Shown piece after piece: positions 82 through 33,590 of a stretch of 64,000 nt of DNA. Origin of the DNA: a virus; the IMG/VR virus record IMGVR_UViG_3300025030_000003, positions 62,001 through 126,000 of that record. The stretch is one strand, 5' to 3'. The notes under the pieces are model-generated. The model saw only the letters and a list, made by a program, of their open reading frames with translations, searched no databases and had not been told where the DNA came from. A program made the translations under genes and the position numbers. Within the stretch, counting starts at the first letter, position 1. Each line of letters begins with the position of its first letter.

Positions 82-327
82 TTAGTCCCTATGAAATTCG
101 TGGCAGTATCCACAATATTTATTTTCTACATCTTTTGGATGATAAGAAGTCTTGTTACATTTTAAACAAGTTATCCTAAGCATAAATCTTAATGTAGAAC
201 CTGCCGTGTCTATAAAATATGTTTTCTTATTCTCAACAGCTCTTCTCCTAGGAATACCATATATCCATGACATTAGGAGTAAAAAAGATATAGAAAATAT
301 TAATAAGAATACTATAAAAAATGTCAT
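82..327 (-). CDS. Membrane-anchored zinc-ribbon protein
   Basis: 81 aa. Residues 1-23 form a hydrophobic segment (FFIVFLLIFSISFLLLM), followed by a basic IPRRR stretch and a C-terminal zinc-binding knuckle, ITCLKC...YHPKDV..KYCGYCHEFH, of a type common in small phage proteins. A longer frame opens at 429, but the ATG at 327 overlaps the TGA of the preceding gene (ATGA junction), so I use 327. Likely an inner-membrane protein with a cytoplasmic zinc ribbon; role unknown. Confidence 0.75.
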   Translation of the reverse strand: MTFFIVFLLIFSISFLLLMSWIYGIPRRRAVENKKTYFIDTAGSTLRFMLRITCLKCNKTSYHPKDVENKYCGYCHEFHRD

Positions 328-527
328 GATACTAACTCCCTCAATGTCATATAAGAAGTAAAATGGTCTTCGTCTATTTCCTCTAACGATGTATAAGATG
401 ATTTCATAGGTATCCCAGAATGCTCCCAACTATGTTTAACTTCGTCCCAAAAGTATAGAAACCCAGTTGGAGAGGTTCTATAATAAGAGGAGCCTAGATT
501 AGTTGTATATTTGAAATATTTAACCAC
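324..527 (-). CDS. MxEL-tail family protein
   Basis: 67 aa. It shows the layout shared by about 60 small genes here: an N-terminal M-x-[KR]-Y-[FY]-[KR] (MVKYFKY), an aromatic middle with a central W, an acidic stretch (SLEEIDEDHF) and the tail LRELVS. The tail codons carry a purine-rich Shine-Dalgarno for the next gene, whose ATG overlaps this stop. It overlaps the upstream gene by 8 bp. Function unknown; I know no characterised homologue. Confidence 0.8.
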   Translation of the reverse strand: MVKYFKYTTNLGSSYYRTSPTGFLYFWDEVKHSWEHSGIPMKSSYTSLEEIDEDHFTSYMTLRELVS

Positions 528-801
528 TTACAAGTTCTTTCATTATTCTTAATTTTTCTATGTCATGAGTGTTATCTATTATCTTATAACCCATGTGAAC
601 TTCTAAAAATTCTTTTTTACCATACTCATATATATCTGTACCATGGTAGATAATATGCCAAATATTTCCCCAGATTCTTCCAGTTTTAGCATCTACTTTG
701 TCTCCAGCAACCCTAGCTAAAGAATTACCGTCTATTTTAACTATCATGACTTTTCCATCTGGGTCATGTACTAAGTAAAAAGGTTTTCTTCTATCAGCCA
801 T
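520..801 (-). CDS. MxEL-tail family protein
   Basis: 93 aa, starting MADRRKPFYLVHDPDG and ending IMKELVSG, one residue beyond the usual tail. The middle is rich in Tyr, Trp and His (IWHIIYHGTDIYEYG). Eight bp overlap with both neighbours indicate translational coupling. Function unknown. Confidence 0.78.
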   Translation of the reverse strand: MADRRKPFYLVHDPDGKVMIVKIDGNSLARVAGDKVDAKTGRIWGNIWHIIYHGTDIYEYGKKEFLEVHMGYKIIDNTHDIEKLRIMKELVSG

Positions 802-1306
802 CTTTTCTCTTCCTAGTACGTTTTGGTTTAGGTGGATTGTCCCTTTCCCATAACAGCTCTGACAGAAAATAATAATCTCTACAATATACTTGGTCGGGGT
901 CTATGCCTTTTTTCTCACAATCTTTGATAAATTCTTTAATACAATTTTCATAGAATTGAAATTCTTTCGGATATTTCTCTTGTTTATATCTAAACATTTC
1001 TATATGTGTAGGAATTTTAACGTCTACGGGTTTTGCATCCATTACTATTTCCACTTCTACTATTTCTAATTCATCAGCTTTATAGTAATGGGTTGGGGTA
1101 GAATAATCAGCATTAAACCACTCCGTACTATTTCTACGTACCCATTCTGCATGTTCAGGAGTCATAGACATCCAACAATTTATATTGTCTTTATCTACCT
1201 CTATTATATACTGGAACTCTCCACAGAAATCTCCTCCCTCGTTAGAGGAGAGTCTTACTTTTAAGAATTCATTTTTAACTTTATGTCTTAGTCTATACTC
1301 TTTCAC
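794..1306 (-). CDS. Hypothetical protein, 170 aa
   Basis: GTG start at 1306 embedded in the stop of the upstream gene (GTGA). Soluble, acidic in the middle, with a very basic C-terminus (PPKPKRTRKRKDG) that could bind nucleic acid. It lacks the MxEL tail although it sits inside a family cluster. Not recognised. Confidence 0.75.
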   Translation of the reverse strand: MKEYRLRHKVKNEFLKVRLSSNEGGDFCGEFQYIIEVDKDNINCWMSMTPEHAEWVRRNSTEWFNADYSTPTHYYKADELEIVEVEIVMDAKPVDVKIPTHIEMFRYKQEKYPKEFQFYENCIKEFIKDCEKKGIDPDQVYCRDYYFLSELLWERDNPPKPKRTRKRKDG

Positions 1307-1416
1307 GGTTCCTGCCAGTCTTCACAAAACTCTTGTTCTATGTTAGTAATAATATTTTCTTCCACAGAACAAGTACCGTCTAAATAATGCTTACAATTCT
1401 TACAACAGAGTTTCAT
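1303..1416 (-). CDS. Cys-rich microprotein, 37 aa
   Basis: MKLCCKNCKHYLDGTC then an acidic segment and FCEDW. Spacing CCxNCKHY...C...FC is typical of small phage zinc-binding proteins. Stop and next start overlap (GTGA). Starts 1 bp before the end of the upstream gene at 1418. Function unknown. Confidence 0.65.
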   Translation of the reverse strand: MKLCCKNCKHYLDGTCSVEENIITNIEQEFCEDWQEP

Positions 1417-1417
1417 G

Positions 1418-1624
1418 TTAATCTCTGTAAGTAATGAAGAAAGTTACGATATAGGAATTAGCTTGATTGTAGGGAGATTTAATTCCTTCTATATTACTTT
1501 GTATTCCCAACACCGATTCTTCTGGGATATTAAATCTTGTCAATATTTCGTTCAAAGTCTCCGTAAGATTTTCATTATTAACATGATTCTTTACATTAAC
1601 TGCCTCTTTTACAACTTTAATCAC
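1418..1624 (-). CDS. Hypothetical protein, 68 aa
   Basis: GTG start at 1624 inside a GTGA junction with the upstream gene, which is the main support for the start. Residues 1-35 could form a helix (ENLTETLNEILTRFNIPEES). Not recognised; no MxEL tail. Confidence 0.65.
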   Translation of the reverse strand: MIKVVKEAVNVKNHVNNENLTETLNEILTRFNIPEESVLGIQSNIEGIKSPYNQANSYIVTFFITYRD

Positions 1625-1848
1625 AATATCTCCTCTGTTAATTCTTTCATAACTCTCATTTTATCTCGATATTCATAATCCGATGCTTTGATATCTATTA
1701 CCTCATCAAGGATACCATACATCCACATCTCGTTAAATAAGTCTAAGCCATAAGAGTCTAATCTCCGTCTCATAGCTTCTTCTATATGTTCTCTCTCCCT
1801 GTTAGGGAGAGTTCCTTTTCTTTTATAATCTTCAGAAAAACTATTCAT
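1621..1848 (-). CDS. MxEL-tail family protein (extended tail)
   Basis: 75 aa, helical and charged; the tail motif is present as VMKELTEEIL, so three residues follow the usual end point. It lacks the Y-[FY]-K opening. A GTGA junction couples it to the next gene. Confidence 0.65.
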   Translation of the reverse strand: MNSFSEDYKRKGTLPNREREHIEEAMRRRLDSYGLDLFNEMWMYGILDEVIDIKASDYEYRDKMRVMKELTEEIL

Positions 1849-1850
1849 AT

Positions 1851-2360
1851 TTATTTACCACAAAGTACTTTAGCGGTAGTGTAAGCTGTTGTATCTGGAG
1901 GAATTGCTTTCCAATTAGTCTTAAAATCTAGGAAAGCATCCTTATTTCCCATATAATCAAATCCTTGTCCTATTTCATTATTTTTAGAGTCATATCTTCT
2001 TCCGACAATAAGAGCAGTAGTAGCACTATCACAGTCATATACGACGTACACTACAACTGTCTCATAAACACTGACAGATAACTTTTCCCAAGCTTCTACG
2101 AGGTTGGGTTTATTAACATATCCCGTTACATGCTTAGAAGTTTTTACTGAGTTAGCATCTACTTCAACATTAGTCCCTTTAATGGGAATCCAAACAGGGT
2201 CTTTGAAGGCTACTTTTTCTTCTGGCTTCGCTACTATTTGAGATTTAATTACTGAGGGTTTAACGTGTTTTCTAGCATGTAAGTAATCTGTGATAGCCGA
2301 AGCGGTAATAGAAGATATTAAAACACCAACTATATACAATACAATATATTTTTTATTCAT
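1851..2360 (-). CDS. Exported protein resembling surface-adhesin protein E
   Basis: 169 aa with an N-terminal hydrophobic signal or anchor (YIVLYIVGVLISSITASAI, residues 5-23). The C-terminal half has features I associate with the surface-adhesin E family of Gram-negative bacteria: VYDCDSATTALIVGRRYDSKNNEIG, a conserved W and a terminal VLCGK, with two Cys probably paired. Strong SD (AAGGAGAAGTT) and a consensus promoter at 2390-2418 sit directly upstream, so it is probably expressed as its own unit. Possibly a lysogenic-conversion or superinfection protein; that is inference. Confidence 0.65.
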   Translation of the reverse strand: MNKKYIVLYIVGVLISSITASAITDYLHARKHVKPSVIKSQIVAKPEEKVAFKDPVWIPIKGTNVEVDANSVKTSKHVTGYVNKPNLVEAWEKLSVSVYETVVVYVVYDCDSATTALIVGRRYDSKNNEIGQGFDYMGNKDAFLDFKTNWKAIPPDTTAYTTAKVLCGK

Positions 2361-2385
2361 AACTTCTCCTTTTAATTAGTACTGT

Positions 2386-2862
2386 TTATAGTATAATAGC
2401 TAAAACACTAAATGTCAATACTAAAACCACAAATATTAAGATAAGTGAAGCTATAATTTTAACAGGTTTATTTTCTATCTGATAATCTTCGTCTTCTACC
2501 ATAATGTGTTTTCTAATCTCCTCAGCATGTTTTCTTTTTTGTTCCAGGATATCTAAGTGTTTTTGTTCTAATTTATAAGTAGTTACAAAATATCTAGTGT
2601 CGCCTTTGCCCTTACAGACAATTACAATATCTTTGTTTCTACATTTAACTTTATAAATTCTTGTAGTTTTTCCAAATCTACTAATGAGTTCCGCTTTCCC
2701 CGTATCAATTTGGGAGAACATATCATCTATATCTAACTTAGATAAGTTGATGTCATGCCTTTCTTGAAACCTATTCATAAGATGAAGAAGACGATTCCTT
2801 TGGGGAGTCTTATCTTTATTAGCGAATAGATATTGTGAATTTGTTCTCTTTTTACTAGCCAT
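2386..2862 (-). CDS. Hypothetical protein with C-terminal transmembrane anchor
   Basis: 158 aa: a basic N-terminus, a soluble middle (MNRFQERHDI..., then FGKTTRIYKVKCRNKDIVIVCKGKGDTRYFVTTY), a charged helix around residues 100-125, and a hydrophobic C-terminal helix (IIASLILIFVVLVLTFSVLAII). Tail-anchored topology is predicted, with the N-terminal domain in the cytoplasm. Its last codons contain the promoter of the next gene. Confidence 0.75.
   Translation of the reverse strand: MASKKRTNSQYLFANKDKTPQRNRLLHLMNRFQERHDINLSKLDIDDMFSQIDTGKAELISRFGKTTRIYKVKCRNKDIVIVCKGKGDTRYFVTTYKLEQKHLDILEQKRKHAEEIRKHIMVEDEDYQIENKPVKIIASLILIFVVLVLTFSVLAIIL
2390..2418 (-). promoter_or_regulatory. Sigma70-type promoter for the adhesin-E-like gene
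   Basis: -35 TTGACA (2413-2418), 17-nt spacer, -10 TATACT (2390-2395), read on the minus strand. It lies inside the 3' end of the membrane-anchor gene and about 30 nt ahead of the ATG at 2360. Confidence 0.75.
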
Positions 2863-2863
2863 A

Positions 2864-3220
2864 CTAACTTACCAGCTCTTTCATGTATAAAAATCTATTT
2901 ATTTCTTCTTGACTTGTTAATTCATAAACTTCTCTTTCTTCATCAAAATGAAGTATTAAATGAGTTAGTACTCTCGACCATATTCTTTCTTTTTCTTTGA
3001 ATACTCCGTCAACATATAAATGAAGATGTCTTTTGTGTATCAGCCATTCAACAGTATGACACTGAATATTTTTTCTTCTTATTATATAGAAAGTTTTATT
3101 ATCGAGATAATTATTGTATATGTTATCTAACCATTTACTATAAAAGCTATGGAAGAAACACACATCTCTAAACCATTGATGTTTTATATAAAATATATCA
3201 TTAGGTTTTATTTCTTTCAA
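2864..3220 (-). CDS. MxEL-tail family protein
   Basis: 118 aa. A longer frame opens at 3268, but the TTG at 3220 sits in a TTGA junction with the previous stop and has an SD (AGGGAG) in the preceding tail codons, so I start there. The body is rich in Trp, His and Tyr; the end is ELTSQEEINRFLYMKELVS, a complete family C-terminus. Confidence 0.75.
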   Translation of the reverse strand: MKEIKPNDIFYIKHQWFRDVCFFHSFYSKWLDNIYNNYLDNKTFYIIRRKNIQCHTVEWLIHKRHLHLYVDGVFKEKERIWSRVLTHLILHFDEEREVYELTSQEEINRFLYMKELVS

Positions 3221-3453
3221 GCTGTTAGCTCCCTTAACATTTTTACAGAGTCTATAAAGCTCAGACATTCTTCTTCTGTTATTTCATTAACATACATATC
3301 TGGAATATAATTAGATATGGTCTTTTCAATATTATTTATAAAACACCATTCTTCATATTTAAAGTTGTAAAAATAGAGAAATTTATCATCTCCATATAAT
3401 TTATAGAAGACTTCAGAATTTGCTTTACTTTTAAAATATCTTATATGACTCAA
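3217..3453 (-). CDS. MxEL-tail family protein
   Basis: 78 aa, MSHIRYFKS opening, EITEEECLSF before the tail MLRELTA. Four-bp overlaps on both sides. The sequence around FLYFYNFKYEEWCF is extremely aromatic. Confidence 0.78.
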   Translation of the reverse strand: MSHIRYFKSKANSEVFYKLYGDDKFLYFYNFKYEEWCFINNIEKTISNYIPDMYVNEITEEECLSFIDSVKMLRELTA

Positions 3454-3665
3454 CTGATTAATTCCTGTACTGTTTCAAAAGTTTCTATTCGTATTAGGCA
3501 TTCTTCTTGGGTTATTCTCTCTAGGTACCCGTCATATATTTGAAAAGTTTTTGTATCCCCTATTCTCTCCCAACTTTTAAATCTCCAATCATACATGAAG
3601 AAATAATCATTCACTAATTGATAAAATACTATATTATGTTTATTTATGAAGTATTCCCTAATCAT
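3450..3665 (-). CDS. MxEL-tail family protein
   Basis: 71 aa, opening MIREYF, with ITQEECLIRI followed by the tail TVQELIS, where Val replaces the usual Met. Four-bp junctions on both sides. Confidence 0.78.
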   Translation of the reverse strand: MIREYFINKHNIVFYQLVNDYFFMYDWRFKSWERIGDTKTFQIYDGYLERITQEECLIRIETFETVQELIS

Positions 3666-3967
3666 CCTACTAGCTCATTCATTGTTAATAAACTGTCTAT
3701 CTCTTCTTCTGTTATTTCATACATGTCATCGTTGTCTATTAAGCTATTTATAAAACATTTATAGAGGTCTTTGCTGACTGTGTTTTTTCTACCTTCTTTG
3801 TCGTATATCTCAAGACCACATCTCTTATTTCCTACACAATATCCAATACCAACCCACTCATCTTTTTTAGGATTAAAGATTATAGCCACTTTAATATCTT
3901 TAGCAGGTTCATAATAAAACTTACTATTAAACTCATCTCTTTTGGGAATATGATTAAGTTTTATCAT
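3662..3967 (-). CDS. MxEL-tail family protein
   Basis: 101 aa from the ATG at 3967 (MIKLNHIPKR), which has a good SD (GGAGAAGG); a frame opening at 3979 would overlap the upstream gene further. Ends YEITEEEIDSLLTMNELVG. Confidence 0.75.
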   Translation of the reverse strand: MIKLNHIPKRDEFNSKFYYEPAKDIKVAIIFNPKKDEWVGIGYCVGNKRCGLEIYDKEGRKNTVSKDLYKCFINSLIDNDDMYEITEEEIDSLLTMNELVG

Positions 3968-4316
3968 TGCCTTCTCCAAACAAATATCTTATTGGGATTT
4001 TAACAGCGTAGGCTATATCTTCCTGTATTTTATCTATCATACTGAGTTCGTAATAATTTCCCTCTTTAGGTTTAGCTACTAACTCTATCATTACCAAAAC
4101 CGACTCTACTTCTTCTGGAGTTAATTCAAAAACAGTTGATGGATGATGTTCTAAGAAATTTTCAAACTCATAATCCATCCATGCTGACCTATGCCATTCC
4201 CCCTCTCTCAATATATACACAGTGCTAGAAGTACGAAAATTAGCTTCTCGCCTTTTGTAGAAAACAGGATTGTTGTGGTCGTTATCTATATTTTTATAAT
4301 ATCTACATTTATCCAT
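3954..4316 (-). CDS. MxEL-tail family protein with extra C-terminal domain
   Basis: 120 aa. Residues 1-80 are a standard family member (MDKCRYYK..., ELTPEEVESVLVMIELV). About 40 residues then follow the tail, with IQEDIAYAVKIPIRYLFGEG, which resembles the end of a Cro/C1-type helix-turn-helix. It is paralogous to the next-upstream gene (4309-4695). The extension shows that the tail can be internal. Confidence 0.72.
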   Translation of the reverse strand: MDKCRYYKNIDNDHNNPVFYKRREANFRTSSTVYILREGEWHRSAWMDYEFENFLEHHPSTVFELTPEEVESVLVMIELVAKPKEGNYYELSMIDKIQEDIAYAVKIPIRYLFGEGNDKT

Positions 4317-4695
4317 TAAATTTAGTTCTTATGTTATCTATCTTATTCATTAATCTATTAATAATACTTTTAGTTTTTATAGGGTTTACTTCTAGGGGTT
4401 TCATAGGAATTATAGTTATCCTATTTAACTCTGCCATCATTTCTGATATAGTAAATCCAACTTCATCTTGGTCTACTAGCTCTCTCATAATCATAATGGA
4501 GTTAGCTTCTTCTTCAGTTATTTCTATAACTTTAGTTGAATCTTGAGATAGATATGTTTCAAATTCCGCTAAACTCCAAATAGAATCTTTCCAAATATTA
4601 TCCTTTTGACAAACTACGACTCCTCGTTTATCTACTTTATACAAAGTAGGACAAGATTCAAATTCTATATCTTTGTAATATCTACATTTATTCAT
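4309..4695 (-). CDS. MxEL-tail family protein with C-terminal extension
   Basis: 128 aa; MNKCRYYKDIE opening closely matches the 3954-4316 product, as do IEITEEEANSIMIMRELV and the W-rich middle. About 50 residues follow the tail and look helical and basic. The pair is probably a recent tandem duplication. Confidence 0.75.
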   Translation of the reverse strand: MNKCRYYKDIEFESCPTLYKVDKRGVVVCQKDNIWKDSIWSLAEFETYLSQDSTKVIEITEEEANSIMIMRELVDQDEVGFTISEMMAELNRITIIPMKPLEVNPIKTKSIINRLMNKIDNIRTKFNG

Positions 4696-4697
4696 TG

Positions 4698-4829
4698 TTA
4701 AGCATCTAGTTCTTTTCTTACTTTTTCTACCAAGGGTTTCACTAAATGATACATTCCCATTTTCTTAGCAATTGCTTCTAACTCGTCTACTAAGACTCTA
4801 ATAACTCTTTCTAATTTTTCTACGTTCAT
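4698..4829 (-). CDS. Helical microprotein, 43 aa
   Basis: ATG at 4829 lies in an ATGA junction with the upstream family gene, whose ELIG codons supply the SD. Alternating charged and hydrophobic residues (VEKLERVIRVLVDELEAIAKKMG) predict one or two amphipathic helices. Not recognised. Confidence 0.65.
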   Translation of the reverse strand: MNVEKLERVIRVLVDELEAIAKKMGMYHLVKPLVEKVRKELDA

Positions 4830-5086
4830 CCTATTAACTCCATCATACTTTGTTGTACCATACATTCTTCTTCCGTTATAAGTTCTGAAGTATAACTAGA
4901 ATGATAATGTTTGTTATACCCAGTTTCTGCTATCAACTCTGATAAATTGTACCATTCAAAACTTATAGCCCACTGCTTACCAGTCCATATATGAAATATA
5001 CTTTTATGGATAGTAGGGGTATATTGTATTAACTTAACTTTATTTATTTTATAGTCTAACATGGTAACTTTAAAATATTGACTCAT
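4826..5086 (-). CDS. MxEL-tail family protein
   Basis: 86 aa, opening MSQYFKV, with ELITEEECMVQQSMMELIG at the end. Trp and Tyr are frequent in residues 30-65. Confidence 0.78.
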   Translation of the reverse strand: MSQYFKVTMLDYKINKVKLIQYTPTIHKSIFHIWTGKQWAISFEWYNLSELIAETGYNKHYHSSYTSELITEEECMVQQSMMELIG

Positions 5087-5087
5087 A

Positions 5088-5288
5088 TTATCCTTCAGTA
5101 ATAAAATCCAAGGCTACTCTAAATACCGTTCCTATGACTATCCCAAAGATTAAATTAGGACAATGAGATGGAGTGAATACACAAATTAAAAATATTATAC
5201 CTAAAGCTATCGCATACCAAGTATAGATAGCATATTTAGTATTAAAGACTGGAATGGGTTTAGCCAAAAACTCTTTTATTTTATTCAT
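5088..5288 (-). CDS. Small membrane protein, 66 aa
   Basis: Two predicted transmembrane helices (YAIYTWYAIALGIIFLICVF and NLIFGIVIGTVFRVAL) joined by a short TPSHCP turn. Holin-sized, but nothing specific supports lysis. Confidence 0.7.
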   Translation of the reverse strand: MNKIKEFLAKPIPVFNTKYAIYTWYAIALGIIFLICVFTPSHCPNLIFGIVIGTVFRVALDFITEG

Positions 5289-5383
5289 TACATTTTACCT
5301 ATTAAATTAATTACAAACAACATGGCTAATATTATTAACATCATACCAAGCATTTGTAATGGTACTAAGATTAATGCTTCCAC
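5288..5383 (-). CDS. Single-span membrane microprotein, 31 aa
   Basis: GTG start at 5383 with SD GGAGAAAG formed by the end of the upstream gene. The product is almost all hydrophobic (LQMLGMMLIILAMLFVIN). TAATG junction with the next gene. Confidence 0.6.
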   Translation of the reverse strand: MEALILVPLQMLGMMLIILAMLFVINLIGKM

Positions 5384-5590
5384 TTATTCTTTCTCCAATT
5401 CTTTTGTTATATTCTCAAAGAGTTCAGAATCTTCTATATTGAATACATTTCTTTTAGGGTCAAGATTAGAAATAATTTGTCCGACTCTAAGATAGGGATG
5501 CTTACGTTTATACTGTCTCAACTTATTAAACAACTCATCTATCTTTTCTTCGTCAAACCTAAAGTTGTAATCTTCTTGGTGTTTCTTCAT
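5384..5590 (-). CDS. Conserved-looking phage protein, 68 aa
   Basis: Contains KHPYLRVGQIISNLDPKRNVFNIEDSELF, a pattern (R-x-GQI-x-N ... F-x-IED-x-EL) I have seen in small phage proteins of unknown function. Ends in an acidic-basic helix whose codons hold the SD of the next gene. Confidence 0.7.
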   Translation of the reverse strand: MKKHQEDYNFRFDEEKIDELFNKLRQYKRKHPYLRVGQIISNLDPKRNVFNIEDSELFENITKELEKE

Positions 5591-5907
5591 TCTTCACAAG
5601 CTCCGTTTTCCCAGTCAGCTAATATTAACTTGCTTCCAACTTTATTTTTGACACACGTATTTGTATGAGATTCCGTGTGAACATCCTTATCTGTCGCTAT
5701 AACACAGTAATTTCCGTCTAAGAAAGAATGACCATACGTTATAGACTTAACTGTTTCTGGGTAAGTTGCTTCTTTTAACATTAGACATTCTTTAGGCATG
5801 TGTTCTATTCCATAACCTATTAACACAAATATTGATAGAAAAAATACTAATCCTAATATTACACTAGCTCCATTATTATCATTTCCAATATTTCTTTTTA
5901 TTCCCAT
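5587..5907 (-). CDS. Single-span membrane protein, 106 aa
   Basis: Transmembrane helix at residues 15-33 (VILGLVFFLSIFVLIGYGI), then a domain of about 70 residues with four Cys, likely periplasmic with disulfides. SD AAGGAGA and a promoter at 5928-5956 precede it. Not recognised. Confidence 0.72.
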   Translation of the reverse strand: MGIKRNIGNDNNGASVILGLVFFLSIFVLIGYGIEHMPKECLMLKEATYPETVKSITYGHSFLDGNYCVIATDKDVHTESHTNTCVKNKVGSKLILADWENGACEE

Positions 5908-5927
5908 GATATTTCTCCTTTATAATA

Positions 5928-5956
5928 ATCATAGCATATCTTTAACAATAAGTAAA
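5928..5956 (-). promoter_or_regulatory. Sigma70-type promoter
   Basis: -35 TTTACT (5951-5956), spacer 17, -10 TATGAT (5928-5933) with TGC just upstream of the -10. Directs transcription of the gene starting at 5907. Confidence 0.65.
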
Positions 5957-5969
5957 GTATTTATTAAGA

Positions 5970-6260
5970 TTAATTTACAAGTTCTTCCATACTACGGAGA
6001 GTAATCATTTCATCATCTGTTAATTCAAATACTTTAAAGTCATTCCAGTACCAATAAAAAGTACTCATAGTTTTACTTTTTTCATAATCATGAGGTTTAT
6101 CTAAAGTATCGTTATTATTACAATAGTATCTGAATTCTATACCCGTTATATAAATATCTTTATTAAATCCTCGTTTATGTTGTAATAGATAAAGTTTATT
6201 ATCAAGAAAAGAATATTTATTATTCTTTTCTTTACTATCGTCAGGAAATATTCTTATCAT
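5970..6260 (-). CDS. MxEL-tail family protein
   Basis: 96 aa. The opening MIRIF is atypical but the end FELTDDEMITLRSMEELVN is standard. Last gene of the run before a promoter; the tail persists although no gene is overlapped downstream. Confidence 0.75.
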   Translation of the reverse strand: MIRIFPDDSKEKNNKYSFLDNKLYLLQHKRGFNKDIYITGIEFRYYCNNNDTLDKPHDYEKSKTMSTFYWYWNDFKVFELTDDEMITLRSMEELVN

Positions 6261-6487
6261 GATACCAATTCTCCCATAGCTAAATAAGCTAGATATTCTT
6301 CTTCGGAAGCTTCTCTGTACTGCCTAGAATAATATTTTAATAATTCCTCTAAAGTATAACTATGACTTTTATGTAAGTTACCTATCCCATCAATGTAATA
6401 AAGTCTTCCTTCTTTCTCAACGTAGAATTCAAAATATCTAGCACCCACTTTATGTGTGAAGTCTTCTCTTATCATAGCATATCTCAT
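6257..6487 (-). CDS. MxEL-tail family protein
   Basis: 76 aa; ARYFEFYVEKEGRLYYIDG in the first half, EASEEEYLAYLAMGELVS at the end. ATGA junctions at both ends. Confidence 0.78.
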   Translation of the reverse strand: MRYAMIREDFTHKVGARYFEFYVEKEGRLYYIDGIGNLHKSHSYTLEELLKYYSRQYREASEEEYLAYLAMGELVS

Positions 6488-6816
6488 GATATTAATTCTT
6501 TCATCATTAGTAAAGAACGTAATTCTTCTTCTGGATTATCCGTTTCTGGTTCATAAAGGACTCCTTCATATTTTTGACATTCGTGTGGATGATTACTGTC
6601 ATGAAGATAGCACTCCCAATTGTCTTCATTTATAAATTTGAAAGTTCCTGTCTGATGCCAAATACCATTATAGTCTCTCTTAGACTCTATTTGATAAGAA
6701 ACTAATTTGAGTCTTTTTATTAAGATGGCTTTTTCAAACTCTTCATACAAAAGATAATATGTTTTATTATAATCAAAGCTCCAAGCCTTTCTTAATAAGT
6801 CATCTATCTTTTTCAT
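6484..6816 (-). CDS. MxEL-tail family protein
   Basis: 110 aa, with NKTYYLLYEEFEKAIL near the start and EELRSLLMMKELIS at the end. Central segment carries two His-Cys pairs (CYLHDSNHPHEC). Confidence 0.78.
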   Translation of the reverse strand: MKKIDDLLRKAWSFDYNKTYYLLYEEFEKAILIKRLKLVSYQIESKRDYNGIWHQTGTFKFINEDNWECYLHDSNHPHECQKYEGVLYEPETDNPEEELRSLLMMKELIS

Positions 6817-7046
6817 TTTGTAAGTTCTTTCATATATCTTCCTAAGTCTACTTTAGCATTTATCTCTTCAGAAGTCAATCCTCTATCAATAAGTTCTTTT
6901 TCTATAATCTCATAGTAACATTCTAAATCATAGTACTCTCTATTCATATAAGAACTCATACCAGATAACTCATTATCTATCCAAACTAAATCAGATAATA
7001 AACTATCACTTGTCTGTTCTTCTATGTCTTGTAACATATTAGGCAC
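6813..7046 (-). CDS. MxEL-tail family protein (divergent)
   Basis: 77 aa, acidic and helical, without the aromatic N-terminal signature; keeps LTSEEINAKVDLGRYMKELTK. Overlaps the upstream gene by 8 bp. Confidence 0.7.
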   Translation of the reverse strand: MPNMLQDIEEQTSDSLLSDLVWIDNELSGMSSYMNREYYDLECYYEIIEKELIDRGLTSEEINAKVDLGRYMKELTK

Positions 7047-7584
7047 CTATAAGTTCTTCCATAGATTCAAGACTTCTTAAAGCATCTTCAAACTTACAAT
7101 AGATTCTGGGTAGGGTCTTTACAAGATTGAAAACTTCTTTACCTGCTAAATATGGATTTCTAAAAGCATAGTTCCAATAGTTAAAACTTGGATTAGGAAA
7201 TGGAAGACCTACATAATATTCTATATTATTTTTATCGTCAAATCTCATTAAATAATTATTGCCTTTTATGTTAGCTAAAATATACTCTTCTCCGAGACCT
7301 AATTTTCTAGCAATATCATGTTCACATTCTACCCTATAGTATATATTCCAAATGTTATCAATGCCAGATAACCATTCATCTAATTCTTTAGAAGTCTTGT
7401 TAGGTTTATAAATATTATCCATAGTACTGTCCCTATCGATAGAAGTATCAGAGACATTACCCTCTTTATCATATAAATAATGAGATGCAATAGCAGAGAA
7501 CTCAAGACCCTCTTCCTTTTTAATTAGGTCATAGTACTCTTTGTCTACTGTATATGTTTTATATAATATATGAGAACTATACAT
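7039..7584 (-). CDS. MxEL-tail family protein, long (181 aa)
   Basis: The longest member. Begins MYSSHILYKTYTVDKEYYD and ends ALRSLESMEELIGA. SD-like GGAGATT lies ahead in the preceding microprotein gene. Probably a two-domain version of the family. Confidence 0.72.
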   Translation of the reverse strand: MYSSHILYKTYTVDKEYYDLIKKEEGLEFSAIASHYLYDKEGNVSDTSIDRDSTMDNIYKPNKTSKELDEWLSGIDNIWNIYYRVECEHDIARKLGLGEEYILANIKGNNYLMRFDDKNNIEYYVGLPFPNPSFNYWNYAFRNPYLAGKEVFNLVKTLPRIYCKFEDALRSLESMEELIGA

Positions 7585-26446: not shown

Positions 26447-26796
26447 GATACAAGTTCCTTTATCATTCTCTCTGAGAGATATTCCTTCTCGTCTAAGAGA
26501 TATATTTTTCTGAACATATACTCATGAAACCTATTAGATATTCTTAGGTCAGCGTTTATTAGATTAGATATATTTGAATGGAAGTTGACATTATATAGTA
26601 GCTCTAAGAATTGGTCTATCTCTTTCGCACTGGAAGTTCTAAAGTCTATATATACTTTCTTCTGTATGTTGAAAGAACTCGTTATAACCCAGTATCTTTT
26701 TATACTCCAAAAGAACCATCTTATTATAAAATGATTATGCTTTTTAAATACCGAAAAGATATTAAAGATACTTGATTTATTGTCTACTTCAATCAT
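26443..26796 (-). CDS. MxEL-tail family protein, 117 aa
   Basis: Divergent body with few acidic residues and several Phe/Trp (HFIIRWFFWSIKRYWVI), tail RMIKELVS. Could be membrane-associated, though no full transmembrane helix is clear. Confidence 0.73.
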   Translation of the reverse strand: MIEVDNKSSIFNIFSVFKKHNHFIIRWFFWSIKRYWVITSSFNIQKKVYIDFRTSSAKEIDQFLELLYNVNFHSNISNLINADLRISNRFHEYMFRKIYLLDEKEYLSERMIKELVS

Positions 26797-27098
26797 AATA
26801 CAAGTTCCCTCATAATAGAATATTTATCTATTTCTTGTAAATACTCTTCTTGGGTTTCATACATTTCAACAATAGGAAATTTGAACTCCCTATTCAAATT
26901 AAGAATATATACATGAAAATTATTATCTTTTATATAAGCCCGAGACTTTCTAGCTTCCCTACGTTGCCCAGGATATCTATGTTCTTTCATTTTAAAATTG
27001 TAACCCGAGTCTCGGTCTCCTTCAAGAGTCATGAAAGAAACTCCACAAGTATTAAATTGTTCATTAGGAAGTCCTTTTATTTTTAAGTATTGTATCAC
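26793..27098 (-). CDS. MxEL-tail family protein (EEYLxEI subfamily)
   Basis: 101 aa with GTG start in the GTGA junction. MIQYLKIKGLPNEQF start, YETQEEYLQEIDKYSIMRELVL end. Confidence 0.77.
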   Translation of the reverse strand: MIQYLKIKGLPNEQFNTCGVSFMTLEGDRDSGYNFKMKEHRYPGQRREARKSRAYIKDNNFHVYILNLNREFKFPIVEMYETQEEYLQEIDKYSIMRELVL

Positions 27099-27331
27099 GA
27101 TATTAGTTCCTCCATAGCCAACATTGCCCTATACTCTTCTTCTGTATACCATTTTAATTCAAAGACACTCTTAGGATAATCATCTAATATTTTATCTAAA
27201 GTACTACCAGTTTTAAACCAAGAGTTCCTATCATAATAAAGATTGCATTCCCAATAATCTTTATTAGTATGGCGGAAAACCATACCTATCTCTTTCTCAT
27301 GATAGTTTCTTATTGTTAGATAAGTGTTCAC
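27095..27331 (-). CDS. MxEL-tail family protein
   Basis: 78 aa; FRHTNKDYWECNLYYDRNSWF middle, YTEEEYRAMLAMEELIS end, close to the end of the 23462 gene (EEYRAML). Confidence 0.77.
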   Translation of the reverse strand: MNTYLTIRNYHEKEIGMVFRHTNKDYWECNLYYDRNSWFKTGSTLDKILDDYPKSVFELKWYTEEEYRAMLAMEELIS

Positions 27332-27645
27332 TTAGTTAGTTCCTCCATGAATAAGAACTTATCCAATTCCTCTTCGGAGTCTAATTCCCAGAGAGACATA
27401 TCGTGAGACAGGTAATTCCATTTGACAAACCACTTATGTAAATTCATTCGAAGAGTAGAATCCGTAGCTTCAGAAGTATGCCATGTCTTTCTATTCCTAG
27501 TACTGGTAAGATGCTTGTAGTAGAAGTTACCTATAGGAATAAACACATGTAAGTTCTCCGTAATAAAAGTTTCTCCCAGACATACTAAATATATCTTTCC
27601 GTACTCAATATTAAATGTATGATGTATGTTACCTAAGTTTCTCAA
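27328..27645 (-). CDS. MxEL-tail family protein
   Basis: 105 aa, GKIYLVCLGETFITENLHVFI start, DSEEELDKFLFMEELTK end. Confidence 0.77.
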   Translation of the reverse strand: MRNLGNIHHTFNIEYGKIYLVCLGETFITENLHVFIPIGNFYYKHLTSTRNRKTWHTSEATDSTLRMNLHKWFVKWNYLSHDMSLWELDSEEELDKFLFMEELTK

Positions 27646-27887
27646 GTGGTCAACTCCTGCATGAATAAAAAGTTATCGAGTTCTTCTTTAGTTACTTCTC
27701 TTATACTTAAGAATCTTTTATCGTGTTGAGCATTTCCAAGATACCAATCCGACATTACCCATTCATTAGATTTAATCATTAGCTCTCTCCATCTATAGTA
27801 TCTCTTATGAACTCCTATCCTAAAGAATCTATATCTAGGAGTCTTCCTATACCCATCAAATAATGTTATGAAATATTTATATTTCAT
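27642..27887 (-). CDS. MxEL-tail family protein
   Basis: 81 aa, MKYKYFITLFDGYRKTPRYRF start, EVTKEELDNFLFMQELTT end; the last 15 residues resemble those of the adjacent 27328 product. Confidence 0.77.
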   Translation of the reverse strand: MKYKYFITLFDGYRKTPRYRFFRIGVHKRYYRWRELMIKSNEWVMSDWYLGNAQHDKRFLSIREVTKEELDNFLFMQELTT

Positions 27888-28237
27888 GAAACTAATTCCC
27901 TCATAGTTTCATATACTGGAATCAATGAAAGGTCTTTCCTGAATCCTCTTCTTAGTAGATTCATTATGAATCTACTAGGATTTTCTAATCTAACTTTTAT
28001 CTTGTCTACTCCTCCAAATGGGTCTGGTATCAAGAAATCATTATCATCATCGAACCAGTCCTCTACCATCCAAGCAGGGGCTACCACATATAACCTATCT
28101 ACTAAGAAGTATTCAATGGGCTTTAGGGGTAGGGGATTCTCAGGGTTAATACAATTTAATAATTCCATATTAAGATAGGGTTCATTGTAGAATAGAACAC
28201 GAGTATCTTCTTTTGTATATACAATTGATAACTTCAT
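27884..28237 (-). CDS. MxEL-tail family protein (divergent), 117 aa
   Basis: YTKEDTRVLFYNEPYLNMELL start, RKDLSLIPVYETMRELVS end. Lacks the usual EIT-x-EE before the tail; contains PLKPIEYFLVDRLYVVAPAWM. Confidence 0.73.
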   Translation of the reverse strand: MKLSIVYTKEDTRVLFYNEPYLNMELLNCINPENPLPLKPIEYFLVDRLYVVAPAWMVEDWFDDDNDFLIPDPFGGVDKIKVRLENPSRFIMNLLRRGFRKDLSLIPVYETMRELVS

Positions 28238-28425
28238 TCAACAAGTTCCTGTAGCATTATAGTTTTCATGGCTTTCTCTTCTGTAATTTTATGACCAGCC
28301 ACTCCGCCTACGGATAAGTTCCACTCTCCATTATACCAGTACTCTAATCTTTTTTCAATACAATCATACCGATATATTAAGGGATTGTAAAATTCTTGTG
28401 TTGTATAGAAATACCTAAAGGTCAT
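28234..28425 (-). CDS. MxEL-tail family protein, 63 aa
   Basis: Start at ATG 28425 (MTFRYFYTTQEF) in the ATGA junction; the frame at 28446 would eat into the previous gene. KITEEKAMKTIMLQELVE end. Confidence 0.76.
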   Translation of the reverse strand: MTFRYFYTTQEFYNPLIYRYDCIEKRLEYWYNGEWNLSVGGVAGHKITEEKAMKTIMLQELVE

Positions 28426-28664
28426 GATACTAGTTCCCTCATGCACCTTAATTTATCATACTCTTCTTTTGTTTCTATTTGATAAACATCATATTTATCA
28501 AATATACATTTACCATTTTTCTTGAGATAGTAAAGAAGTTCTTTTACCATTTGCCTACCCATTATTCTATAGTATGTTCTTTTCTTATTAAATAGATAGA
28601 AAACAGGAGGATGGGGAGGAGTTAAACGATTAGATAAATCTTCTTCTTCAATTATTGGTATCAT
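28422..28664 (-). CDS. MxEL-tail family protein
   Basis: 80 aa, PVFYLFNKKRTYYRIMGRQM, YQIETKEEYDKLRCMRELVS end. Confidence 0.77.
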   Translation of the reverse strand: MIPIIEEEDLSNRLTPPHPPVFYLFNKKRTYYRIMGRQMVKELLYYLKKNGKCIFDKYDVYQIETKEEYDKLRCMRELVS

Positions 28665-28984
28665 ACTATCAACTCCATCATGTATTCCAAGGTCTCATAA
28701 TCTTCAGCCTCTGCCAGTACTTCATAACCATATTCAAGAAAATAGTGTTCTGGTTTAAGTTCTAGTCTTCTAGGTAACGTAAGCCAACCATATTCTTTCC
28801 TGTGGATGTCGTAGTAATAGTTATAGGTACCGTCTCCATTTAGTCCTAGGGTTAATCTACATATAGATATATCTAAGTTATTTTTAACATACTTATAACT
28901 ATCCTTAACAAGATAGAATCTCTTTCCAGATTCTTCATAAGCTTTGAGGTTTCCAAAAGAATCTTCTCCTATAAAATGTTTCAT
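28661..28984 (-). CDS. MxEL-tail family protein
   Basis: 107 aa, KRFYLVKDSYKYVKNNLDISI, end EAEDYETLEYMMELIV. Confidence 0.77.
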   Translation of the reverse strand: MKHFIGEDSFGNLKAYEESGKRFYLVKDSYKYVKNNLDISICRLTLGLNGDGTYNYYYDIHRKEYGWLTLPRRLELKPEHYFLEYGYEVLAEAEDYETLEYMMELIV

Positions 28985-29229
28985 GAGATGAGTTCCTTCA
29001 TATACTTAAGCTTTGTCTTCTCTTCTTCAGACTCTATCTCGTAGATATCATACAAATCAAAGAACCCAGAATACCCTTTAAGAAACGAGCCGTCATCATA
29101 AGTCAACCTATAGGAAGTCCATTTCATTATCCTCTTCTTATTAGTTATACTTATATAACCATCTTTCTTTCGGATAGTATAATATTGTTTCTTATATTTG
29201 ATATCAGCCTTATTAAATATTTGTATCAT
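28981..29229 (-). CDS. MxEL-tail family protein
   Basis: 82 aa, KKQYYTIRKKDGYISITNKKR, YEIESEEEKTKLKYMKELIS end. Overlaps the upstream non-family gene by 17 bp. Confidence 0.77.
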   Translation of the reverse strand: MIQIFNKADIKYKKQYYTIRKKDGYISITNKKRIMKWTSYRLTYDDGSFLKGYSGFFDLYDIYEIESEEEKTKLKYMKELIS

Positions 29230-29419
29230 ACTTCTTTACCTTTTCTATGAAATCTTCTCTCCCGTCCACATCATCTAGCATGAGAGAAGAAAGTTGATTC
29301 CTCTGTTCGGGTGTCATCTTATTGTAGTTGCTCAAACATTGCATTTCAATATCTTTAATCTGTTTTTCAATCTCTAAGATATCGTCTATTAATTTGTTAG
29401 CTTCATTTTCAAAATTCAT
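29213..29419 (-). CDS. Coiled-coil protein without the tail, 68 aa
   Basis: Start at ATG 29419 (MNFENEANKLIDDILEIEKQIKDIE) in the ATGA junction. Helical heptad-like first 35 residues. A non-family gene inside the cluster. Confidence 0.7.
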   Translation of the reverse strand: MNFENEANKLIDDILEIEKQIKDIEMQCLSNYNKMTPEQRNQLSSLMLDDVDGREDFIEKVKKYDTNI

Positions 29420-29640
29420 GATGTCAACTCCTTCATAGTTAAATAAGTTAAAGTTTCTTCTTCTGTTATAGTTGTTATGATACCTCCGAAAGTTCCAAAA
29501 CATCTTATTAAATCTTCTTCATCTACATAGTGAGTACTGAGCCACTTCCCTATTTCAGGAACATAAGCTTCTACTGTTTTAATACCTTCTGGGTCATATC
29601 TAAAATACCTATTTCTACTGGAACTAAAATATTTTATCAT
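29416..29640 (-). CDS. MxEL-tail family protein
   Basis: 74 aa, a compact complete member: MIKYFSSSRNRYFRYD, YVPEIGKWLSTHYV, TITEEETLTYLTMKELTS. Confidence 0.79.
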   Translation of the reverse strand: MIKYFSSSRNRYFRYDPEGIKTVEAYVPEIGKWLSTHYVDEEDLIRCFGTFGGIITTITEEETLTYLTMKELTS

Positions 29641-29912
29641 GATACTAATTCTACCATAAACATTAACTTTTGGAGATGCTCTAAATTCTTGGCTCCCGTT
29701 ATATCATAAATTATTATATTATTTTCTTCATGATATCTTCTTAAGGGAGGTTGACTATGGCTGGAATGTTCTCCACCTTTTAAATAGTTATCGTAGGCTT
29801 TCTTAATACTTTTATCCTCGGGGTATTCAAGATATTTATTCCGCTTATAAGATACTATTTTATACCTGCTAGATTTTGCAAACCTATGTTCATATAAGTA
29901 TAATTTTTTCAT
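29637..29912 (-). CDS. MxEL-tail family protein
   Basis: 91 aa, basic N-terminal half (HRFAKSSRYKIVSYKRNKYL), tail FMVELVS. Here the second tail codon is Val, so the embedded SD is weak, yet ELVS is unchanged. Confidence 0.77.
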   Translation of the reverse strand: MKKLYLYEHRFAKSSRYKIVSYKRNKYLEYPEDKSIKKAYDNYLKGGEHSSHSQPPLRRYHEENNIIIYDITGAKNLEHLQKLMFMVELVS

Positions 29913-30220
29913 GATACTAATTCTACCATAAATATTTTAGTTTGTCTAGCTACAGTTTCTTTTTCTATTACATCAGCTATAGCCCTAGTGATAACTTTGG
30001 GAAGACTATCTCTGTGGCTCTGTTCCATTCTCGGACTATAGTATAATCTATCCCAACTACGGACTTCATTGAACAAGTACTCCATAGTATAAGTACCTTT
30101 TCTTCTATCAACAAGTCTTAAGTTACGTACTGCGAGTTCATTACCTTTATTAAATAGATAGTATCTACTTGTCTCAGCTATAAGATTATATTCGTTTATA
30201 ACAGTATATTCGTTTGACAT
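29909..30220 (-). CDS. MxEL-tail family protein
   Basis: 103 aa from ATG 30220 (MSNEYTVINEYN), the first start after the upstream stop. Tail FMVELVS; its last codons and junction are nearly identical at DNA level to those of the gene at 29637. Confidence 0.75.
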   Translation of the reverse strand: MSNEYTVINEYNLIAETSRYYLFNKGNELAVRNLRLVDRRKGTYTMEYLFNEVRSWDRLYYSPRMEQSHRDSLPKVITRAIADVIEKETVARQTKIFMVELVS

Positions 30221-30222
30221 AG

Positions 30223-30555
30223 TTAATACCTTTTCCAATAATCATAAAGTAATATAAACATTCCACATAGTTTACAAAAGAATCTGTAGCTTATAGTTAT
30301 CTCATATATTCTTTTGTTGAATAAAATAAACACCTGTACTATTTGAAAGCAACTAGCATTACTAATTTTAAAATCATATCCTCGGGCATACTTTATTTTA
30401 TAATCTTTTAAAGTCATTCTCTGTATGAATTCAGCAGACTCAGATTGCCCTTCTGGAAATAATTTCCCTGTATGGAAATTAATGAATCCTAATTTAATAA
30501 AGAAAATATCTTTATATGTATAGTATTCCAATATGTTTTTAATTAATACTTTCAT
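30223..30555 (-). CDS. Hypothetical protein, 110 aa
   Basis: Phe-, Ile- and Tyr-rich, with FFCKLCGMFILLYDYW near the end; no tail. Probably a membrane-peripheral or beta-rich protein. Not recognised. Confidence 0.65.
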   Translation of the reverse strand: MKVLIKNILEYYTYKDIFFIKLGFINFHTGKLFPEGQSESAEFIQRMTLKDYKIKYARGYDFKISNASCFQIVQVFILFNKRIYEITISYRFFCKLCGMFILLYDYWKRY

Positions 30556-31283: not shown

Positions 31284-31526
31284 TTAGTTTACAAGTTCGT
31301 GCATAGTAAGTATTCTAGTAACTTCATCCTCGTCTGTTATTATTTTAAGACCTACAGGAAATTCATCTATTATATTTTCTAATGTCTTTCCCATAGTATG
31401 TATGGGACATAAGTATTCTTTACTATCCCCCGTCAAATATCTATAATGGATATTATCTTCTCCATAAAAATACACACGGGAAAGAGCGGGGTTATAAGGA
31501 ATATCTACTATAAGTCTCTTTAGCAT
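31284..31526 (-). CDS. MxEL-tail family protein
   Basis: 80 aa; LSRVYFYGEDNIHYRYLTGD, EDEVTRILTMHELVN end. Last gene ahead of the promoter; no overlap downstream, but the tail is intact. Confidence 0.76.
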   Translation of the reverse strand: MLKRLIVDIPYNPALSRVYFYGEDNIHYRYLTGDSKEYLCPIHTMGKTLENIIDEFPVGLKIITDEDEVTRILTMHELVN

Positions 31527-31784
31527 TTAACTTACTAACTCCTTAAGAACAAGAGCACTATTAAATTCTTCTTCTGATAATTCTTGTACTATGTTTAACT
31601 TTTTATACAAATCCTGTATGTCATCACAGAAAGCTCCAATGTGCCTATCATAGTATTGAAATAAAACATATCCTCTAGGAACAGCTAACTGATGAGGACA
31701 GAACTTAACATACTCAAAAAGATTAGAGGGTGTTACAACCTTAAAGTATCTGGGTTTAGTGTATTCAAGATACAAATTCCTCAT
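31527..31784 (-). CDS. MxEL-tail family protein
   Basis: 85 aa, LEYTKPRYFKVVTPSNLFEYV start, ELSEEEFNSALVLKELVS end (Leu in place of Met). Confidence 0.77.
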   Translation of the reverse strand: MRNLYLEYTKPRYFKVVTPSNLFEYVKFCPHQLAVPRGYVLFQYYDRHIGAFCDDIQDLYKKLNIVQELSEEEFNSALVLKELVS

Positions 31785-32011
31785 CCTTTTATTCTTTCCG
31801 CCAGTTCTATTATCTCTTTGTTGAATTCATTCTTACATTCTCCAGAACAGATGTGGAGTTTAGCTTTACTTATCCGAAAAGTTATCCAGTCGTTATCTCT
31901 AATAGCATCTATTATATCTTGAGGGCATGGCTCATGAGGAGTCTCTATATGTTTACCGCACTGGTCGCAATAGATTCTGTATAGGTATTCATCGTCGTCA
32001 AAAACTATCAT
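31781..32011 (-). CDS. Zinc-finger protein, 76 aa
   Basis: YCDQCGKHIETPHEPC at residues 14-29 and HICSGECKNEF at 54-64 make a four-Cys site. Ends in a short amphipathic helix. No tail. Confidence 0.7.
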   Translation of the reverse strand: MIVFDDDEYLYRIYCDQCGKHIETPHEPCPQDIIDAIRDNDWITFRISKAKLHICSGECKNEFNKEIIELAERIKG

Positions 32012-32240
32012 AAGTAATAACCTCCTTAGTCTCTAAATCAAAAACAAAGTATTCCAACGAGAATAAAGTAAAATCAGAAACTGGAGATTTATCTATAAAT
32101 CTTATAGCGTAAGATACTTGCCTAATAAATCTTTTTAATGATTTCCCTGTATGAACATGATTCCTAGATGTTGGAAATATAGTTCCAACATAGTATAAAT
32201 TATCTTCCACTATATCTTCATCATAATAAAGCCTGTTCAT
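31998..32240 (-). CDS. Hypothetical protein, 80 aa
   Basis: MNRLYYDEDIVEDNLYYVG start; ends FDLETKEVITYDSF. Overlaps the next gene by 14 bp. Body layout resembles the MxEL family but the tail is absent. Confidence 0.65.
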   Translation of the reverse strand: MNRLYYDEDIVEDNLYYVGTIFPTSRNHVHTGKSLKRFIRQVSYAIRFIDKSPVSDFTLFSLEYFVFDLETKEVITYDSF

Positions 32241-32384
32241 TTATATCTGCTCCATCTTCTTCAGGTTCTCGTCAGACTGTCTCTTGTCTTTAAGTCCAGT
32301 TCCTATAAACACTTGTGCTCCGTAGGTTTCATCGTAACCTATGAATAGTAATTCTCTTTTCTTTAAGTCTTCTTGTTTTGACAT
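32241..32384 (-). CDS. Small protein, 47 aa
   Basis: ATG 32384 overlaps the preceding TAA (TAATG). MSKQEDLKKRELLFIGYDETYGAQVFIG... ends with a charged helix. Confidence 0.62.
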   Translation of the reverse strand: MSKQEDLKKRELLFIGYDETYGAQVFIGTGLKDKRQSDENLKKMEQI

Positions 32385-32653
32385 TAGTTTATTAACTCCT
32401 TCATGCACTTGTATATTTCTGCTTCTTCCTGCGTAGCCTTCTGGAATTCCTTTCCATTCTTTTGGATACCGTAATCTAACAGGTCTCTTAGTCCCGCTTC
32501 TGATACATCACTCCACATAGTAACAGAGAATCCATTGAAGTAAAATTGTTTCTTAGTAGCTACATCTCTTATAGTCCATGCTCCTCTTCGACATTCGTGG
32601 AATGTCTCGTCATAATAAACTTCTACTATACTATCGTTAATCTTATAGTACAT
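32384..32653 (-). CDS. MxEL-tail family protein
   Basis: 89 aa, MYYKINDSIVEVYYDETFHECRRGAWTI, EFQKATQEEAEIYKCMKELIN end. Confidence 0.77.
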   Translation of the reverse strand: MYYKINDSIVEVYYDETFHECRRGAWTIRDVATKKQFYFNGFSVTMWSDVSEAGLRDLLDYGIQKNGKEFQKATQEEAEIYKCMKELIN

Positions 32654-33186
32654 TAGTTTAATAGCTCCTGTAGCATTAGGATTGAATCTATCTTATCTTC
32701 TGAGTTCAACATTCCTCTTACTTCCTCAGTAATATTTTCGTCCTTTAGAAACTTCTCCAGTGTATCATAGTAATAGAATTGTAATTCTTTAAAAAGACTG
32801 CTTCTTATCCTAGAGATTATGAACGGATGATTCTTTGTATCAGTTTCCGAATAGCCGTAGTAATCAGAATCATATTCATCTACTATATCAAAGCTTCCTC
32901 TACTAAATTTTATTTTCCATTTATTCTTACCTCTCCAGTAAGGGTCATGATACTTAGATACTACAAACTCTTCATTAGTATCATGTAGTTCTTTAATCTT
33001 ATTGTAGCATATTATTACTAAAGCATCAAGTAGTTTGTAACTAAATCTTATCTTATCGGCTTCTTCTTTTATTAACTCAGGATTATCAATTGCATCTTTA
33101 AGCATACCTCGTAGAGAACTGTGGCTCCTACAGTTCTCTTCTATTAAAAGTATGTCGGCTATTACTTCTGAGTTAGTGTAATCCAT
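32653..33186 (-). CDS. MxEL-tail family protein, 177 aa
   Basis: A long helical N-terminal domain (residues 1-75), then YWRGKNKWKIKFSRGSFDIVDEYDSDY and the end DKIDSILMLQELLN. Probably a fusion of an extra domain to the family C-terminus. Confidence 0.74.
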   Translation of the reverse strand: MDYTNSEVIADILLIEENCRSHSSLRGMLKDAIDNPELIKEEADKIRFSYKLLDALVIICYNKIKELHDTNEEFVVSKYHDPYWRGKNKWKIKFSRGSFDIVDEYDSDYYGYSETDTKNHPFIISRIRSSLFKELQFYYYDTLEKFLKDENITEEVRGMLNSEDKIDSILMLQELLN

Positions 33187-33590
33187 TAGTTTACAAGTTC
33201 TTCCATAACTTTAGGTGCGTTCATTATACTATCAACTTCTTCTCTTCTACGAGAACAATCAAAACATCCTACGTAAGTTATTCTACAGTAGACTTTAACT
33301 ATAGCTGTAACAACTCCGTCTATGTTTTCGTATGTTAGTACATTGCTTGTACTAGCTTGGTCGTATTCTATATTAACACAAGCATAACCAGCACTGAAAT
33401 CTTTAACGTGGTTTCTTAACTCTTCATTCTGTAAACTGGAATGGTAGTAAACATTCTCCACTACTAAATCTCTAAAGGTAATTTCATTATCTGTCTTAGC
33501 AATACATTGTACTGAAGTTCCTCTTGCGGGAATGCGTTCTCTCTTTTTTCTAGTCGTCATACTTTTACCAGAACCTTTTATAGCAATCAT
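33186..33590 (-). CDS. MxEL-tail protein, first gene of the cluster
   Basis: 134 aa. Very basic N-terminus (GKSMTTRKKRERIPARG), a VGCFDCSRRREEV site, and the tail VMEELVN. Preceded by the shared leader ending AAGGAGACATCT. Confidence 0.74.
   Translation of the reverse strand: MIAIKGSGKSMTTRKKRERIPARGTSVQCIAKTDNEITFRDLVVENVYYHSSLQNEELRNHVKDFSAGYACVNIEYDQASTSNVLTYENIDGVVTAIVKVYCRITYVGCFDCSRRREEVDSIMNAPKVMEELVN

Follow-up and report, generated by a model that had tools for sequence, protein, structure and literature searches.

The DNA analysed here, a window of 64,000 nucleotides (bases 62,001-126,000 of the 190,151-base IMG/VR virus record IMGVR_UViG_3300025030_000003, referred to as G000), carries a long array of small genes whose proteins share a tail, [ML]-x-E-L-[VIT]-x, at or near the C-terminus, and this tail is conserved by selection as a feature of the protein. 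The motif ends 54 genes of the window and lies internally in 4 more, a total of 58, all of them on the minus strand and in three clusters (0.3-7.9, 15.1-19.0 and 22.3-33.6 kb), which bears out a preliminary description of about 60 tandem small genes in three clusters with a common tail. The array runs on past the left edge of the window as far as about 2.3 kb in the G000 record, and in the whole record 94-98 of about 370 genes, about a quarter of those called, have the tail; these lie on one strand, with 0-1 on the plus strand, the total varying with the gene caller; gene calls were greedy and mechanical. The genes of G000 are those of a large contractile-tailed phage, including terminase, prohead protease (phrog_207), capsid, sheath and a DnaB-like helicase, and the nearest named relatives of its capsid are found in Rhizobium phages of the Kleczkowskaviridae (36% identity, RHph_TM39); the stretch from 22 to 34 kb has no DNA match to any named phage.

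The sharing of C-termini can be seen without reference to a motif, by counting the pairs of small proteins that have at least 5 identical residues among the last 10. In G000 there are 790 such pairs, against 16-22 in shuffles, 38 at N-termini and 8 in mid-protein segments, which excludes chance as the source of the shared tail. The same count gives 748 pairs in G001, a near relative with a capsid 99% identical to that of G000, and 1798 in G002 (IMGVR_UViG_3300025436_000002, 170 kb), the capsid of which is 74% identical, with about 20 in shuffles; all three are metagenomic records. Individual matches to the motif may still be chance endings, possible cases being window 41226-41564 and the genes at 13616, 46073 and 8408 of the record.

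That the tail is kept as protein is shown by 81 reciprocal-best pairs of tail genes compared between G000 and G001; the selection estimates are pairwise. The Glu has changed in none of the 81 pairs, nor has the Leu, and the Met has changed in 7, whilst 1505 of 8550 body residues (17.6%) differ. The ratio of nonsynonymous to synonymous substitution rates (dN/dS) is 0.03 at M/E/L, 0.16 over the ten residues that precede the tail and 0.19 over the bodies, compared with 0.10 for small genes that lack a tail. At the tail Glu there are 20 synonymous and 0 nonsynonymous changes, with both Glu codons in use, and the Leu codons of the tail (TTA, TTG and all CTN) occur at background frequency (p=0.26). 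The bodies (0.19 pooled, 0.12 median) lie above the non-tail small genes yet under purifying selection, and the diversifying selection that had been suggested for them is not seen; in the three genes where dN/dS exceeds 1 the changes are too few for a verdict, leaving positive selection unsupported.

The tail genes of the window are as follows.

324-7933, minus strand: cluster 1, 13 tail genes and 3 internal tails
324-527, 520-801, 2864-3268, 3217-3453, 3450-3665, 3662-3979, 4826-5086, minus strand: cluster 1 tail genes, first part
5970-6260, 6257-6487, 6484-6816, 6813-7046, 7039-7584, 7685-7933, minus strand: cluster 1 tail genes, second part
1621-1848, 3954-4316, 4309-4695, minus strand: cluster 1 internal tails
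15142-18989, minus strand: cluster 2, 9 tail genes and 1 internal tail (15142-15420)
15417-15770, 15767-15994, 15995-16291, 16792-17049, 17543-17836, 17829-18266, 18263-18559, 18556-18759, 18756-18989, minus strand: cluster 2 tail genes
22289-30238, minus strand: cluster 3a, 27 tail genes in almost unbroken succession
22289-22621, 22618-22914, 22914-23174, 23176-23460, 23462-23728, 23710-24042, 24039-24560, 24557-24865, 24862-25146, minus strand: cluster 3a tail genes, first part
25146-25448, 25445-25702, 25699-25980, 25974-26210, 26207-26446, 26443-26796, 26793-27098, 27095-27331, 27328-27645, minus strand: cluster 3a tail genes, second part
27642-27887, 27884-28237, 28234-28446, 28422-28664, 28661-28984, 28981-29229, 29416-29640, 29637-29912, 29909-30238, minus strand: cluster 3a tail genes, third part
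31284-33590, minus strand: cluster 3b, 5 tail genes (31284-31526, 31527-31784, 32384-32653, 32653-33186, 33186-33590)

Ribosome-binding sites overlap the DNA of the tail, which often holds both the site and the start of the next gene, and such DNA packs the genes into translationally coupled runs. It might be thought that the tail is only a by-product of these embedded sites and overlapping starts, or a device for coupling: coupling to the following gene is commoner for tail genes than for non-tail genes (69/91 against 61/108, odds ratio 2.4, p=0.005), Shine-Dalgarno-like 4-mers are present in 35 of 52 tails that overlap the next start against 3 of 17 uncoupled tails, and at x and after the Leu, where the protein is loose (0.5-0.6), synonymous change is reduced, as it would be where a ribosome-binding site is superimposed. 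However, Leu uses its six codons at background frequency, Glu and Leu stay fixed while synonymous sites vary, and the tail is retained both by operon-end genes without a next start (for example at 57595, 67970, 84289 and 93284 of the record) and by extended genes, whose internal tails are conserved, so that the ribosome-binding site is an overlay and not the cause. Such sites account for codon choice and for the last residue in G000, not for M-x-E-L; the preliminary description had itself raised the idea that they explain the tail wholly, and codon use, operon ends and internal tails largely refute it, leaving it with hardly any probability. Upstream of gaps, sigma-70-like sites are over-represented whatever the class of gene, with no preference for tail genes, and so they do not establish early expression.

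The proteins in front of the tail have little in common, as the preliminary description noted. Once the final 22 residues are cut off, BLAST joins the 94 G000 bodies by only 2 links and leaves 90 of them unrelated, and no family listed from Pfam, PHROGs or NCBIfam matches more than one tail-gene member; the label "family" given in that description therefore owes more to the tail than to the bodies. Both the Trp and the Y-[FY]-[KR] opening noted there are frequent but not universal, and the proposed paralogy is recovered by BLAST for the pair at 18.3 and 23.5 kb (E=3e-10) and the EEYLxEI set at 24.6, 25.1 and 26.8 kb (E=2e-7 to 3e-8), and by eye for the CRYYK pair at 4.0 and 4.3 kb. A search of a library of papers found no description of such genes, as had been supposed, and the bodies as a family match nothing in Pfam, PHROGs or NCBIfam. 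Segments resembling an LSEEFI repeat occur in tail genes at 18939, 20995 and 22009 of G000 and also in window 56296-56736; apart from weak BLAST links this similarity was seen by eye, and some of the carriers also end in the tail.

Some members are clearly of other kinds. One tail gene encodes a ferredoxin, the Pfam domain of which covers residues 7-61 of 78 and is complete before the tail, an arrangement also kept in G001; the tail is likewise found on membrane proteins and on several that are rich in Cys, including the membrane and zinc-type proteins pointed out earlier. The extensions past the tail are likewise real, being found in 4 window genes, where they measure from several residues up to about 50. 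Furthermore, when the arrays of G000 and G001 are followed gene by gene there are whole-gene insertions, losses and one-for-one swaps, most of which bring their own tail, a rapid turnover of whole genes. Representative cases are listed here.

22618-22914, minus strand: membrane protein with the tail FINELTE, maximum 19-residue hydropathy 2.68
22914-23174, minus strand: CxxC...CxxH protein of zinc-binding type with the tail LMKELTN, no Pfam family at cut-off
24039-24560, minus strand: protein opening with a CPCC motif, tail MMRELTT
3954-4316, minus strand: internal tail LVMIELVA followed by about 40 residues; the G001 orthologue (64% identity) has both, with LVMVELVS
15142-15420, minus strand: internal tail MMRELT, identical in the G001 orthologue, the extension differing in length and sequence
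24862-25146, minus strand: tail gene with a one-for-one swap in G001, where the corresponding place has another tail gene (141299-141559), unrelated to it
31284-31526, minus strand: target of the window-family structure model, with strands, a helix, a strand and a final helix (66-79) that includes the tail; low confidence (mean pLDDT, the predicted local distance difference test, 68)

The more distant relative G002 has an array of its own, in which about 60 plus-strand genes carry a different and uniform tail, L-M-x-x-E-L-L-[KR], and of the 94 tail genes of G000 only 3 find a match in G002 at E 1e-3. Amongst uncoupled genes the final Lys or Arg is present in 12 of 13 in G002 against 2 of 13 in G000, and its retention there marks it as a feature of the protein. 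With tails included 55 of the 60 G002 genes fall into one BLAST group, and the trimmed bodies give 13 links among the 60; profiles of the window and G002 families match each other through the tail with 92% probability, and with 0.3% once the tail is cut. The tail is thus of one type per genome, and the type differs between two related genomes.

Outside this clade nothing comparable was found. Ten other IMG/VR phage records, five of them distant capsid relatives and five with a relative of a phosphoesterase-like protein (window 59513-60850), and Rhizobium phages RHph_TM30/39 have no comparable excess of C-terminal sharing, the highest of the comparison phages being G008, where 24 pairs stand beside 4-13 in its shuffles. 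Across the whole collection the contigs with multiple matches to the tail patterns come from this clade only; a scan of the genome collection with the phosphoesterase-like protein gave no matches, and protein searches with one window member and one G002 member found nothing significant in named phages.

Structure prediction gives a confident model for the G002 family (pLDDT 95.7), with the order strand-strand-strand-strand-helix-strand-helix, in which the final helix is the tail (block-mean pLDDT 93-97); the order of elements is the same in the low-confidence window model. Neither model has a significant match in a fold search of the PDB, and a profile search against PDB sequences gave nothing convincing; the fold matches in a viral library are all weak, the hits being uncharacterised phage proteins of small size (E=0.02 at best, with TM reaching about 0.6).

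The reading favoured here, at a little under an even chance, is that about 95 small proteins make up an arsenal particular to this clade, in which a fast-changing body is joined to a conserved amphipathic C-terminal helix, the [ML]-x-E-L of which fits one partner or interface. In all members the tail helix would engage the same surface, most probably that of one shared partner encoded by phage or host, which would bring variable effector bodies to one place. The docking suggested in the preliminary description survives in this form, with a purely structural role for the last helix remaining as its alternative. Several points weigh against docking: the partner is inferred; in G002 the tail forms the final helix of a single domain, modelled with confidence, and folding may be what conserves it; a lone founder in each lineage might account for the uniformity of tails inside one genome; and few members have a clearly different fold, some of these perhaps being short chance endings, as with the HNH protein at 8408 of the record, which has a tail-less homologue in G002. 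The strongest rival sees in the tail no more than the final helix of a single, highly diverged domain family, retained because the fold needs it and because the members of each phage lineage stem from one founder, with no common partner. The G002 model, the like order of elements in the window model, the opening and the EIT-x-EE before the tail that many members share and the single BLAST group of G002 all speak for it; against it, the low-confidence window model is without a PDB match, the profiles of the two genomes meet through the tail only, Glu and Leu are invariant though the rest of the supposed core drifts, and the tail is also on ferredoxin, Cys-rich and membrane proteins. It is the other-fold cases and the E-L invariance, set against the G002 model, that place docking near an even chance and structure alone at roughly one chance in three; they argue against the latter being the whole story. 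Were it true, the finding would be one of a lineage-specific expansion of small phage genes. Such expansion is the nearest ordinary kind for a motif without match in any known family, system or compared genome; lineage-specific families of small early or accessory phage proteins are likewise runs of small, overlapping, fast-evolving genes with no assigned function, but no case was found among them of one C-terminal motif linking unrelated bodies.

The tail might instead serve as an address that sends proteins into the phage head, as a C-terminal counterpart of the N-terminal capsid targeting sequence of T4. The head genes are T4-like (capsid 36% identical to that of RHph_TM39, head maturation protease phrog_207), [ML]-x-E resembles the x-x-E sites of T4-like head proteases (PMC5694885), and other proteins have a separate N-terminal shared motif, so that the phage seems to use terminal addresses. 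The likeness lies in a short terminal peptide shared by unlike phage proteins and read by one assembly machinery; however, the T4 sequence is N-terminal, is found on a handful of proteins and is removed by the prohead protease after x-x-E, whereas the tail is C-terminal or nearly so in all members, sometimes internal, on about 95 proteins, and its Leu after the Glu is invariant (81/81 pairs), unlike a simple cleavage site. As the tail has neither the N-terminal position nor a free residue after a cleaved Glu, it was not assigned to the T4 type, though it may yet function as an address. Loading of about 95 proteins would be extraordinary, the G002 tail belongs to a fold and the N-terminal motif is the better candidate, all of which makes head loading improbable. 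Less probable again is the idea that the tail lies at the junctions between gene cassettes that can be exchanged, as an anchor for recombination: whole genes are indeed gained, lost and swapped one for one between the G000 and G001 arrays, but the DNA of the tail, with all Leu codons and any x, is too variable and selection is on the amino acids, for which a recombination site was rejected. Hardly credible, finally, is a degradation tag for a host or phage protease, in spite of the C-terminal location and a phage-encoded transfer-messenger RNA (tmRNA) with a predicted tag ending in ALVA; members with an extension retain the tail at an internal position, where it is conserved in G001 orthologues and lacks the free C-terminus of an SsrA-like degron, it is M, E and L rather than the extreme C-terminus that are conserved, G002 tails end in Lys or Arg, and a degron of this type was discarded.

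Returning to the favoured reading of a docking helix, a broader version, possible though somewhat doubtful, is that of a virus-wide C-terminal address in which one helix motif on dozens of unrelated small effectors co-evolves in each genome with one recognition partner, the clade using separate terminal labels, C-terminal for small array proteins and N-terminal for larger, possibly injected ones. The RxLR and PEXEL effector arsenals of eukaryotic parasites also combine one short conserved address with variable bodies and gene turnover; theirs are N-terminal secretion or export motifs of cellular pathogens, and the analogy implies no kinship. Encapsulin cargo-loading peptides are C-terminal, occur on unlike proteins and bind one HK97-fold shell; they are of a sequence type unlike the tail. 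Large phages devote much of their genome to small genes of unassigned function that are studied singly, and here a single selected motif ties together about a quarter of one phage's genes. As one motif is common to the whole set, identifying what the tail binds could assign a function to all of them; if the tail is an address the virus could plug new effector bodies into one socket, which would explain the fast gain and swapping of such genes.

The N-terminal motif, M-[SF]-x-K-[KR]-[IL]-x-x-[LI], is found in the window at 10218-11258 and 11259-11726 (MSLKKIKKITEE and MFKKIINLINE). About 20 proteins have it in each of G000, G001 and G002; these are larger proteins, almost never with the C-terminal tail, and include ADP-ribosyltransferases at 133448 of G002 (ART-PolyVal, 4.7e-47) and 156212 of G000 (weak, HYD1-type), as would be expected if the carriers were injected and the motif were a capsid targeting sequence like that of T4.

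The tmRNA is of the permuted, two-piece kind (window 9295-9496, Rfam RF04321, 98 bits), with the predicted tag GNNTVSLDFGRKMALVA; it is present in G001 and was not found in G002, and two-piece tmRNAs are already known in aquatic phages (PMC9004378). Fifteen consecutive tRNA genes (window 8060-9266) adjoin it. In G002 ARAGORN predicts a tRNA (L039:9277-9352, plus strand) with the anticodon TTA, which would read TAA, yet TAA is the commonest stop of that genome. A Proteasome/HslV-like protein lies at window 58056-58865 (Pfam Proteasome, 1.4e-4, just under cut-off), and its G002 homologue (101798-102346) sits within the G002 tail array. Other genes of the window encode a patatin-like phospholipase (43243-44145, 4.6e-24), a corrinoid adenosyltransferase (46786-47481, 4.8e-38) and a C92-type amidase (40004-40513, 1.3e-8).

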